Below are positions 1-34,878 of a stretch of 34,909 bases of DNA, in pieces. Numbering within the stretch: position 1 is the stretch's first letter; every line of letters starts with the position of its first letter. A program made the position numbers and the translations under genes. Under the pieces are notes generated by a model. That model did no database searches. It worked only from the letters and a program-made list of their open reading frames with translations, and had not been told where the DNA came from. Source of the DNA: Actinomycetota bacterium (GTDB lineage Bacteria > Actinomycetota > AC-67); NCBI GenBank assembly GCA_040905475.1, contig JBBDRM010000130.1, positions 1-34,909 of the forward strand, written 5' to 3'.

Positions 1-54
1 AACCCGGTCCGCCGGGTTAAAAGCCCGGTGCTCTACCCGTTGAGCTAGCGGCCC
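1..54 (-). tRNA. tRNA-Lys (anticodon TTT), 3' end beyond the window
   Basis: Read on the minus strand the sequence starts with acceptor arm GGGCCGC, then TA, D-arm GCTC...GAGC, and an anticodon stem CCGGG/CCCGG around loop CTTTTAA, which gives anticodon TTT (Lys). The variable loop and the first bases of the T arm (CGGGTT) are present. The rest of the T arm and the 3' acceptor strand lie before base 1. The 5' end is at base 54. Confidence 0.93.
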
Positions 55-31981: not shown

Positions 31982-32431
31982 GTGGCCGATCCGGCCGAGG
32001 TCATCGAGGAGTACTTGCGCGACCGCGACATCCGATACGAACGGTCGTCCGAGTCCGACTGGGTCCTCCAGCTCCACGGCGAGAAGAAGCACTCGATCAC
32101 CGTGCTGCTGGCCCTCCGCGAACGCACCCTCGCGCTGGAATCGTTCTTCATGCGCCGGCCGGCCGAGAACCACGCCGACGTCTACGCCATGCTGTTGCGC
32201 GCGAACATGCGGGCGTACGGGATCCGGTTCGCGCTCGACGACGTCGGCGACATCTTCATCGTCACGCGTCTCGCACTCGACGCCGTAACCGATGAAGAGC
32301 TCGACCGCCTCTTGGGGGCCGTCCTCACGACCGCCGACGAGATGTTCATGCCGGCTATCGAGGTGGGTTTCGCGTCCTATCTCGCGAGGGATCTCGCGTG
32401 GCGCGCGGCGCAAACGCAGACGCCGCGTTGA
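31982..32431 (+). CDS. YbjN-domain protein (Rv0487-like)
   Basis: 149 residues. One YbjN domain (about 5-130): VIEEYLRDRDIRYERSSES with WVLQLHGEKKHSITVLL and, further on, ENHADVYAMLLRANM and GDIFIVTRLALDAVTDEELDRLL. YbjN folds resemble type III secretion chaperones; the actinobacterial versions have no proven function. A gene of this family follows mshA in mycobacteria (Rv0487), so it may matter for mycothiol metabolism, though that is inference from synteny. GTG start, 5 bases after the GNAT stop. Confidence 0.85.
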   Translation: MADPAEVIEEYLRDRDIRYERSSESDWVLQLHGEKKHSITVLLALRERTLALESFFMRRPAENHADVYAMLLRANMRAYGIRFALDDVGDIFIVTRLALDAVTDEELDRLLGAVLTTADEMFMPAIEVGFASYLARDLAWRAAQTQTPR

Positions 32432-32542
32432 CGAGACCGTTCGAGGCGATCGGCGTGCTCGAAAAAATTCGCACCTGCGACCGGTACGACTCGACCAGGC
32501 GTTTTCCCTGTTTTTCCGCGACGACCAGGGGTTTTGCCGTTC
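32432..32542. other. Upstream intergenic DNA before the structured RNA
   Basis: No gene seen. It contains A/T runs (GAAAAAATT at about 32460, GTTTTCCC and GTTTTTCC between 32500 and 32520, GTTTTGCC at 32530) that could act as an UP element for the promoter at 32543-32570. Confidence 0.4.
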
Positions 32543-32570
32543 TTGACCGGCGAATCGTGGATGGTATCTT
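32543..32570 (+). promoter_or_regulatory. Promoter of the structured RNA
   Basis: TTGACC (32543-32548), 16-base spacer, TATCTT (32565-32570). The expected start (5-7 bases after the -10) falls at 32575-32577, exactly where the long closing stem of the RNA begins. Confidence 0.6.
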
Positions 32571-32574
32571 TCGC

Positions 32575-32802
32575 GTGCCCCGAGCGGCCAGAGCGGCCGA
32601 GTCAGGGAACCGACTGGGATCACTCCGGGCGGGCTGGCCGTAAGGAGCCCAACCGAGTGGGGGTGCACTGTCGGGCCGGTGGGATAGGCCGTTTCGCTGG
32701 TCCGGCGGGTAAACTACCAGAAGGGTAAGCGACCCAAAGCCGAACGTCTGCGGTGGTTACCATAAGGAAACCAAGACGGCTGCGGCAGGTTGCTCGGGGC
32801 AC
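32575..32802 (+). ncRNA. Large structured RNA of unknown class, main domain
   Basis: GTGCCCCGAGC (32575-32585) pairs perfectly over 11 bp with GCTCGGGGCAC (32792-32802), closing 206 nt. Inside, local helices can be drawn in order: GGCC/GGCC (32586-32598), AGTC/GACT (32600-32615), GGGCT/AGCCC with CC-GTAA-GG on top (32631-32650), AGTG/CACT (32656-32669), GCCGG/CCGGC (32675-32706), GGGT/ACCC (32723-32735), and AGCC-GTCT/AGAC-GGCT (32738-32781) carrying TGGTT/AACCA with CC-ATAA-GG. No plausible protein is encoded. Known hallmarks of RNase P RNA, tmRNA, SRP RNA and common riboswitches were not found. It may be a free RNA or the 5' leader of the LPNTG-protein gene. Confidence 0.65.
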
Positions 32803-32803
32803 T

Positions 32804-32888
32804 TAGAGTCCGAGAAGCTCGAGGGCTTCGCCAGGCGGGCGCCGCAAGGCGCAACGCGGGCAGAGCCGGTAGGGTCTCTCGGACTCTA
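32804..32888 (+). ncRNA. Second arm of the structured RNA
   Basis: TAGAGTCCGAGA (32804-32815) and TCTCGGACTCTA (32877-32888) form a perfect 12-bp stem enclosing 61 nt. Within are GCGCC-GCAA-GGCGC (32839-32852, GNRA tetraloop) and GGC-TTC-GCC (32824-32832). It begins one base after the main domain. It has no U-tract, so it is more likely part of the same structure than a terminator. Confidence 0.6.
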
Positions 32889-33213
32889 TGTAATTCACCT
32901 CGCACGATAGCCGCGCTCCTTCCGCTTACCTCTTCCTCCTTCTGAATCTCTCTCCCCCAGCGCGGCGCGCTCGCGACGTCCGGGGCGGTCGTCCCATAAA
33001 GGCCGTATCGCGCGAAGCGAGTGGGGGAGTCGCGACCGATCCGGTCGTCGTACTCGGGGGGTTACGAAGGATTTAGCCACCGAGGACTACACAGAATGGC
33101 CCACGTAGGGCATACCCCTGGGGCCGGGGTCCCAACGACAATCCTCCAAGCGCCAAGTGGTGCGCTCGGTAAATCAGGGCACAGATCGCCCGCGGCCTTA
33201 TGGAGGGTACGGA
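32889..33213 (+). other. Leader between the structured RNA and the LPNTG gene
   Basis: About 325 bases without a recognisable gene. 32916-32958 is strongly pyrimidine-rich (CTCCTTCC...CTCTCTCCCCC). Further small stems occur: GACCG-ATC-CGGTC near 33033-33045, and ACCCC/GGGGT near 33113-33129. GGAGGG at 33202-33207 is the ribosome site of the next gene. I saw no second promoter. Confidence 0.45.
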
Positions 33214-34878
33214 ATGAAGCGGATCGTCGGTTTTGCCACCGTTCTTATGGTGGCTCTCGTCCTTATCGCCACGCCTGGCTTCGCCGTATCCGGCGTTACG
33301 GGCACAGCGTCGACCGACAACACGATCGTCGCGGTCGCGGTCGGCAACACGCCCGTCAGGCTCGGTATCGACCTGGCCGATGTCCTCAATGGGTCGTCGA
33401 TCAAGTCGGTTTCCAGCCTCATCACCGGCAAGATCGGCTCCGCAACACTGCCGGGCGGCCAAAGCCGGACCGCCACCAAGGCGTCCGAAAGCGGTAAGGA
33501 AACCATCCAGCCGGGCACGCAGTCGGTGGCCGGTCTCGGCAGCCTGACGGTAGCCGGCCGCTTCATCCAGAGCACCGTCTCGGCGAGCAAGGTTTCCGCC
33601 GTGGTCGACTTCGCTGCGGGCGCGGCCGACGTGCTCGGCGGCCTCGTCGACATCGCCACGATGGACTCCGGCACCACCGCGAGCGTCGACGGGGACTCCT
33701 CCTCCGTGCAGCGTCTCCTGACGATCGGCGACGTCAACGTCGGGAACCTCGCGTCGCTGCTCGACAACCTCGGGATCAACCCGCTCGCGATCGCGTGCGA
33801 TGCGGTTGAAGACGCCGGAGCTGCTCTTGGTATCGGCGCGGTCGTTTCCGACGCGTGCAACCAGCTCAGCGCGGTCGACACCGACATCACGGGCGGCCTC
33901 GGCGAGATCGCCGACACCGAGACCGTGATCGGAACGCTCGAAACCCTCCTCGCCGTTCCCTGCGGGCTCCTTCCGGCAGGCACGTGCGACACGGTTCTCG
34001 GGCAGATCGACGCGCTTCAGCTCGACATCGATGACATCCAGACCGATGCTCCGGACATCTGCACCACGGCGCTCGCCGCCTTGGGCGACGTGTCCGGCCA
34101 GCTCGAGGACATCATCGCCAGCCTCGAGGCCATCGACCTTCTGACCGACATCGACGCCCTCATCGCCCCGATCACCGGTGCTCTGGGTGACGTCGATTCG
34201 GCCGGCTCCACGCTGACCGACGCGTGCAACACGCTCGTCGCAACGGTTGAGGGTCTGCTCGACACGGCGGTGTTGTCGCTCGACGGTATCCAAGTCGCAA
34301 TGGACCTCGTAGCCGACAAGACCCCGACCTCCAGCGTCGCCGGCACCATCGGCGCCTTGAAGATCGGTAGCCTCACGGTGGCCGACTCCGACGACCTCGA
34401 CGTCGTCCTCGACACGCTGCAGGAAACGATCGATGCGATCGAGACCCAGCTCGGCGGCGTGTTCAGCGCCCTCGGTCTGTCGGGCTTGCCGGTGCCGGAA
34501 CTGGACGTGCTCGATTTCACGAACGATGATGGCAAGAACGCTGACGGCACGTACTTCGCGAACGGCTCGATGCGGGCCCTGCACTTCGCGATCCCGTCCG
34601 CGGTGGTCGACATCCCGGCCAACCTTCCGCTGGACGTGCTGAGCGGGTTCGGTGGCTTCGGCCTCGCATCGTTCAAGGCGGCCGCGGTCAACACCCAGGC
34701 CGTGTCGGTTGACGCGGGTGTCTTCACGGGCGAGGCGACGTTCAAGGCCTCGGCTTCTGGCGGCACGGGCGGCGACACGCTCCCGAACACCGGTGTCGCC
34801 GGTGCCGGGCTCGCGTTCGCCGGCCTGATCACCCTCGCCGGGGCGCGCGTCCTGCAGCGAGTCAGGAAGTCGATCTAA
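33214..34878 (+). CDS. LPNTG cell-wall-anchored surface protein
   Basis: 554 residues. Signal peptide at 1-24 (MKRIVGFATVLMVALVLIATPGFA). The long middle is rich in Ala, Asp, Leu, Thr and Gly with a helical, repeat-like region (about 230-380) containing several TACNTLV/TACDTV-like Cys-bearing segments (DAVEDAGAAL, SDACNQL, GTCDTVL, DACNTLV). The C-terminus is a complete sortase signal: LPNTG at 523-527, hydrophobic 529-546, then RVLQRVRKSI. The protein should therefore be linked to peptidoglycan by a sortase encoded elsewhere. No enzyme domain recognised. ATG 33214 has GGAGGG 6 bases upstream. A very long structured leader precedes it. Confidence 0.85.
   Translation: MKRIVGFATVLMVALVLIATPGFAVSGVTGTASTDNTIVAVAVGNTPVRLGIDLADVLNGSSIKSVSSLITGKIGSATLPGGQSRTATKASESGKETIQPGTQSVAGLGSLTVAGRFIQSTVSASKVSAVVDFAAGAADVLGGLVDIATMDSGTTASVDGDSSSVQRLLTIGDVNVGNLASLLDNLGINPLAIACDAVEDAGAALGIGAVVSDACNQLSAVDTDITGGLGEIADTETVIGTLETLLAVPCGLLPAGTCDTVLGQIDALQLDIDDIQTDAPDICTTALAALGDVSGQLEDIIASLEAIDLLTDIDALIAPITGALGDVDSAGSTLTDACNTLVATVEGLLDTAVLSLDGIQVAMDLVADKTPTSSVAGTIGALKIGSLTVADSDDLDVVLDTLQETIDAIETQLGGVFSALGLSGLPVPELDVLDFTNDDGKNADGTYFANGSMRALHFAIPSAVVDIPANLPLDVLSGFGGFGLASFKAAAVNTQAVSVDAGVFTGEATFKASASGGTGGDTLPNTGVAGAGLAFAGLITLAGARVLQRVRKSI

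Follow-up and report, generated by a model that had tools for sequence, protein, structure and literature searches.

Evidence for a stand-alone gene encoding a structured RNA of no known family at the mshA-to-PRODH/proC locus of Actinomycetota

RESULTS

Architecture of the RNA and its promoter

The window, by which we mean the whole 34,909-nucleotide stretch of actinomycetotal DNA analyzed here (genome G000), very probably contains, in a 782-base gap between genes, a stand-alone gene for a structured RNA that belongs to no known family. The ~310-nt RNA would form one closed, branched domain, made up of helices P1 to P6 and conserved internal loops, and then a 3' hairpin. Sequence comparison shows it to be conserved as a structure, with its own promoter module and a stable place at the mshA-to-PRODH/proC locus. 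It is a new family without known relative or function; stand-alone structured RNAs are themselves a known kind. A structured RNA that occurs in several bacterial families and yet has no Rfam entry suggests an as yet unassigned function. The parts of the gene are as follows.

32494-32505 and 32524-32535, plus strand (32494-32535 overall): two ACCAGG..TTTT boxes spaced by 30 bases, ahead of the -35 element
32543-32570, plus strand: predicted sigma-70-type promoter TTGACC-16-TATCTT, from its consensus match
32575-32589, plus strand: P1 5' strand and expected transcription start; pairs with 32788-32802
32593-32599, plus strand: P2 5' strand; partner 32777-32783 by covariation
32600-32617, plus strand: conserved internal-loop strand AGTCAGGGAACCGACTGG, near-invariant across families f1, f8, and f47; faces 32759-32776
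32618-32621, plus strand: 5' strand of the long-range helix; partner 32755-32758, double changes in 4 of 4 pairs (alignment A12)
32631-32650, plus strand: P3 arm with GTAA loop; core 32638-32645
32670-32706, plus strand: P4 hairpin; strands 32670-32683 and 32693-32706, double changes in 12 of 14 pairs
32707-32735, plus strand: P5; strands 32707-32710 and 32732-32735
32739-32754, plus strand: P6; strands 32739-32742 and 32751-32754, read by eye from the alignment and outside the counted model
32759-32776, plus strand: conserved internal-loop strand with CC-ATAA-GG; GGAAACC[AG]AGA near-invariant in most sequences
32777-32783, plus strand: P2 3' strand, by covariation
32788-32802, plus strand: P1 3' strand; pairs with the P1 5' strand
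32804-32888, plus strand: 3' terminal hairpin; the orthologous hairpin in f8 and f47 covaries

Direct reading of the sequence recovered every element that a first-pass annotation of this DNA had listed: a perfect 11-bp stem (32575-32585, GTGCCCCGAGC, with 32792-32802, GCTCGGGGCAC), a perfect 12-bp stem (32804-32815, TAGAGTCCGAGA, with 32877-32888, TCTCGGACTCTA), a promoter (TTGACC at 32543-32548, a 16-base spacer, and TATCTT at 32565-32570), and two capped hairpins (CC-GTAA-GG at 32638-32645 and CC-ATAA-GG at 32760-32767). The 11-bp stem is present but longer than described, reaching 15 bp (32575-32589/32788-32802) once two G-U pairs are counted. The annotation had also judged such pairings very unlikely to arise by chance, which holds for the two stems together but not for each alone. 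When the 782-base gap was shuffled 1,000 times with dinucleotides preserved, a perfect stem of 11 bp or more turned up in 74 shuffles and one of 12 bp or more in 18, while none combined a stem of at least 12 bp with a second of at least 11 bp; a single such stem is therefore not very rare, whereas the pair is. The fold energy of 32575-32890 lay 6.7 standard deviations below that of shuffled sequences.

The promoter module recurs in relatives. The downstream box reads ACC[AT]G in almost every aligned mshA-locus orthologue, and many of these have the second box ~20 or 30 bases further upstream. TTGAC is kept in all but two aligned orthologues (TTGAA in G003 and G004), with a less regular -10 element. 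At the other end of the gene, a U-rich tract comes after the 3' hairpin in f8/f47, and this hairpin shows double changes in 11 of 27 pairs; the hairpin in the window and the rest of f1 has no U-run after it.

Conservation and covariation

The window genome belongs to a small Actinomycetota family, f1, and the RNA is present in all four other f1 genomes at 82-88% identity. Mean identity to these relatives was 0.79 over the RNA (0.87 over 32575-32802) and 0.70 over the promoter, compared with 0.33 in both flanks. Across 19 homologues, any given reading frame is open over the full RNA in 6 at most. Homologues were found in seven families of Actinomycetota; BLAST on a phylum sample supplied f8 and f47, and a class search supplied f58 and f51 (variant). 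All long-form homologues with names are uncultured assemblies, most of them labeled Actinobacteria.

Covariation among homologous regions was scored on two alignments. A8, a MAFFT alignment of 20 sequences that was not fitted to a structure model, had 93.7% of cells paired, double changes in 19 of 50 pairs, and a covariation score of 0.317 versus 0.165 when shuffled and at most 0.098 when slid. A12, which holds 22 sequences including two more families than A8, was fitted to a model that 20 of its 22 rows had trained; it had 96.1% of cells paired, double changes in 30 of 50 pairs (126 cells), and a score of 0.417 versus 0.168 shuffled and at most 0.092 slid. The signal is carried by P1 (double changes in 6 of 13 modeled pairs in A12), P2, the long-range helix, and P4. 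In P5, one of four pairs shows double changes (UA in f1, GC elsewhere) and two are invariant, and P6 occurs as GCC/GGC, GCA/TGC, and GCCG/CGGT among f1 sequences. The P3 core CC-GTAA-GG is identical in 22 of 22 A12 sequences, so the P3 helix offers no covariation test. The conserved bases sit in the internal loops between covarying helices. RNAalifold's first nested model of the middle of the RNA was replaced after all column pairs were scanned.

A covariance model trained on A8 (R3) matched the RNA in two untrained families, at 142 bits in G146 (f42) and 97 bits in G333 (f73). Together with the missing Rfam match and the stable locus with changing neighbors described below, the strong covariation and the conservation of RNA and promoter between unconserved flanks support the proposal of a new noncoding RNA with its own promoter.

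A stable locus with changing neighbors

Upstream of the RNA, the window encodes MshA (TIGR03449, above cut-off), a GNAT protein, and YbjN; beyond the genes that were scanned, gene names are from our reading of translations. Most copies with readable context (in f1, f8, f47, f51, f58, and f42, including the G146 copy) lie downstream of mshA or its GNAT neighbor, and beyond the RNA at this locus come PRODH (proline dehydrogenase) and/or proC. The G333 copy is at a contig end, where no mshA- or PRODH-type neighbors were found.

The RNA had also been proposed to be a riboswitch-like leader of an LPNTG surface protein. G000 and G001, and only those two genomes, do have an LPxTG-like gene next to it on this strand. 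Elsewhere its place is taken by an isochorismatase-like, TetR, ABC-F (convergent), or prephenate dehydratase gene, by PRODH itself, or by no gene, and so the conserved downstream gene of a cis riboswitch is not seen across orthologues. The U-rich tract after the f8/f47 hairpin and the 325 bases that separate the RNA from the LPxTG start in the window likewise speak against a cis-acting leader or riboswitch, which we consider highly improbable. Because the locus remains mshA-to-PRODH/proC while the next gene changes, we read the RNA as a stand-alone gene and not as an LPxTG leader. The 325 bases themselves (32889-33213) are apparently hairpin-capable and by eye unlike their G001 counterpart.

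Comparison with known RNAs

The proposed Rfam check returned no credible Rfam 15 match to the RNA. At gathering scores nothing matched; at E <= 10 over 32420-33240 the only match was a plant-virus element (E = 1.5, 17 bits versus a cut-off of 80), and at E <= 1 the RNA at six relatives' loci gave no match. A CRISPR-DR29 (RF01340) match at L112:1025-1061 scored 30.1 bits, under the cut-off of 39. Open-access literature yielded no paper on an RNA at the mshA-to-PRODH/proC locus or at the C-module loci described below.

RNase P RNA, tmRNA, and SRP RNA are likewise stand-alone structured RNAs, and the first-pass annotation had found none of their hallmark motifs here. RF00010, RF00023, and RF00169 had no match here, and the genome's own copies are located elsewhere, at G000:C17, G000:C55, and G000:C10, respectively. 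The promoter box was not found near the start upstream of these three genes. Y RNAs resemble the window RNA in their closed stem, conserved internal loops, and variable domain, but a TROVE (Ro60) gene was present in 0 of 12 genomes searched, ten of which carry the long form with either interior, and this identity was rejected. OLE, ROOL, and GOLLD are, like the window RNA and its type B relatives with many GNRA-capped arms (below), multibranched stand-alone RNAs; the window RNA is shorter and matches no Rfam model.

Like the window RNA, Ms1, 6S, and CoRP are stand-alone RNAs of ~200-500 nt, and those of Actinomycetota have low sequence conservation and were discovered late. The window RNA differs in lacking their rod-with-bubble fold, in its locus, and in having no Rfam match. 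Its covarying structure is branched, in place of a 6S-like rod with a large central bubble, and its neighbors are mshA, the GNAT gene, YbjN, and the LPxTG gene, whereas Ms1 lies beside a HAD hydrolase and an oxidoreductase (PMC9130861).

Type B relatives

Seven relatives, which we call type B (G106, G073, G084, G245, G039, and G117 of f8 and G170 of f51; loci L092, L093, L094, L095, L097, L098, and L100), keep the locus, promoter, P1, and 3' hairpin. Between P1 and the hairpin they have an interior of ~280-400 nt with a predicted star of mostly GNRA-capped arms; in five sequences, 27 of the 31 arm tips predicted are GNRA loops. Similar arm sequences suggest that type B may have arisen by duplication of the P3 arm. 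For a structured RNA it is unusual that the interior is exchanged in full while promoter, outer stem, and 3' hairpin stay constant.

Outside the mshA locus, G117 and G245 have in addition a type A core in which P1 is rewritten on both strands (GGTCCCAGGCGGC/GTTGCCTGGGACC). These second cores are at L096:1475-1658 and L099:386-569; ARAGORN placed a tRNA-Val near the one in L096.

A shared 3' module

The promoter module (boxes plus promoter) occurs at one further site in each f1 genome, and the reversed control pattern had no match in G000. The further f1 sites precede a ~78-nt RNA, the C module, which is absent from Rfam and in some cases is followed by a U-run. A model built from five C-module RNAs (R1) matched 46 of 397 sampled Actinomycetota genomes at E <= 0.01, and one built from 40 sequences (R2) matched 78 of 397 at E <= 0.001, the E-values of R1, R2, and R3 all being rough. 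In 45 aligned matches, double changes were found in 18 of 20 pairs (208 cells versus 52 shuffled), with a covariation score of 0.708 versus 0.218 shuffled; the alignment had been fitted to the model, and two of its rows are poor. A pseudoknot between a GGGG loop and CCCC in the C module was rejected on two grounds: the linker between the hairpin and the presumed partner is only about one base, with an 8-bp stem to be crossed, and one G001 copy has no CCCC.

C modules were found at loci L144-L173, L174-L191, and L194-L204, some with a further closed domain in front. Several copies lie between amidohydrolase and DUF4193/Lnt genes. In f19, presumably the genus Streptomyces, each match is weak on its own (E = 2e-4 to 9e-4), and in the three f19 loci that were read the module lies between a similar amidohydrolase and a Ppm1-like gene. 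The module's presence in about one-fifth of the Actinomycetota genomes sampled, some of them apparently Streptomyces-like, opens it to tests in a culturable species.

The 3' hairpin of the window RNA may be a diverged copy of the C module that ends other RNAs in the phylum, a step with weaker support than the preceding ones. R2 matched the mshA-locus 3' hairpin weakly at 18 loci of f8, f47, and f51 (17.9-27.8 bits, rough E-values of 1.5e-4 to 0.05) and gave no match to the hairpins of the window and other f1 genomes even at E <= 10. R3 in turn matched C modules weakly in several loci (rough E-values of 8e-5 to 0.04). These similarities are only suggestive of a link between the window RNA and the C module. 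We can put forward only tentatively, and think rather doubtful, a phylum-wide actinomycetotal RNA family whose common element is the C module and of which the window RNA is the elaborated member at the mshA locus; in such a family, several RNAs per genome would share the promoter type and the 3' module, and the 5' domain would be absent in some, a branched core in others, and a star of GNRA-capped arms in still others. If true, this would be a ribonucleoprotein RNA class with a reach comparable to that of 6S RNA elsewhere and present in Streptomyces.

DISCUSSION

We infer that the RNA acts in trans while bound to protein, with its conserved internal loops as docking sites, and that it works neither by pairing with mRNA nor by sensing a ligand in cis. 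A trans-acting, protein-bound RNA fits because the conserved bases sit in internal loops, several RNAs share a module, and there is no conserved target gene; the loops could equally be metabolite- or RNA-binding sites. Taken as one statement, a stand-alone ~310-nt RNA gene with a diverged C-module 3' hairpin and protein-bound action in trans is the account toward which we lean slightly.

The nearest functional idea comes from the published RNAs that bind RNA polymerase, namely 6S, Ms1, CoRP, and scr0792 (PMC9130861, PMC11077062). As a special case of a protein-bound RNA, the window RNA might be a regulator that does the job of 6S, Ms1, or CoRP in lineages from which these are not known. Actinobacterial RNAs of this kind differ greatly between groups and more are expected (PMC11077062), Streptomyces coelicolor has the ~85-nt polymerase-bound scr0792, and in a Streptomyces-like f19 genome, the sole one inspected, rbpA is three genes away from a C-module RNA. 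That neighborhood, however, belongs to a sister RNA and not to the window RNA, and with neither the 6S/Ms1-like rod nor Ms1's HAD-hydrolase locus (PMC9130861), we think this role unlikely; polymerase as the partner is a guess. Quite unlikely, too, is antisense action in trans, with exposed loops such as the P4 loop or the C-module GGGGAAGG loop pairing with mRNAs. Many C modules in several families retain GGGGAAGG, but the copies upstream of DUF4193 lack this loop and retain the internal loop, and internal loops hold the majority of conserved bases. The branched fold with invariant core bases and the interior swapped in type B could also suit a catalytic RNA or an RNA of a mobile or defense system (a retron or guide RNA), which the fixed locus and the flanking genes that were read, among which no reverse transcriptase, nuclease, or transposase was seen, make very unlikely.

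At window positions 1-54 on the minus strand, a tRNA is cut by the window end; it matched RF00005 of Rfam at 36.9 bits and was absent from ARAGORN output. In viral collections, a C pattern had 0 matches and a 16-base pattern had 30, of which only L125 matched the RNA by BLAST. This 2,437-base IMG/VR contig (3300024553_000086) carries a type A RNA, cut at both ends and joined to AT-rich sequence at the contig end, and it could be an assembly chimera.
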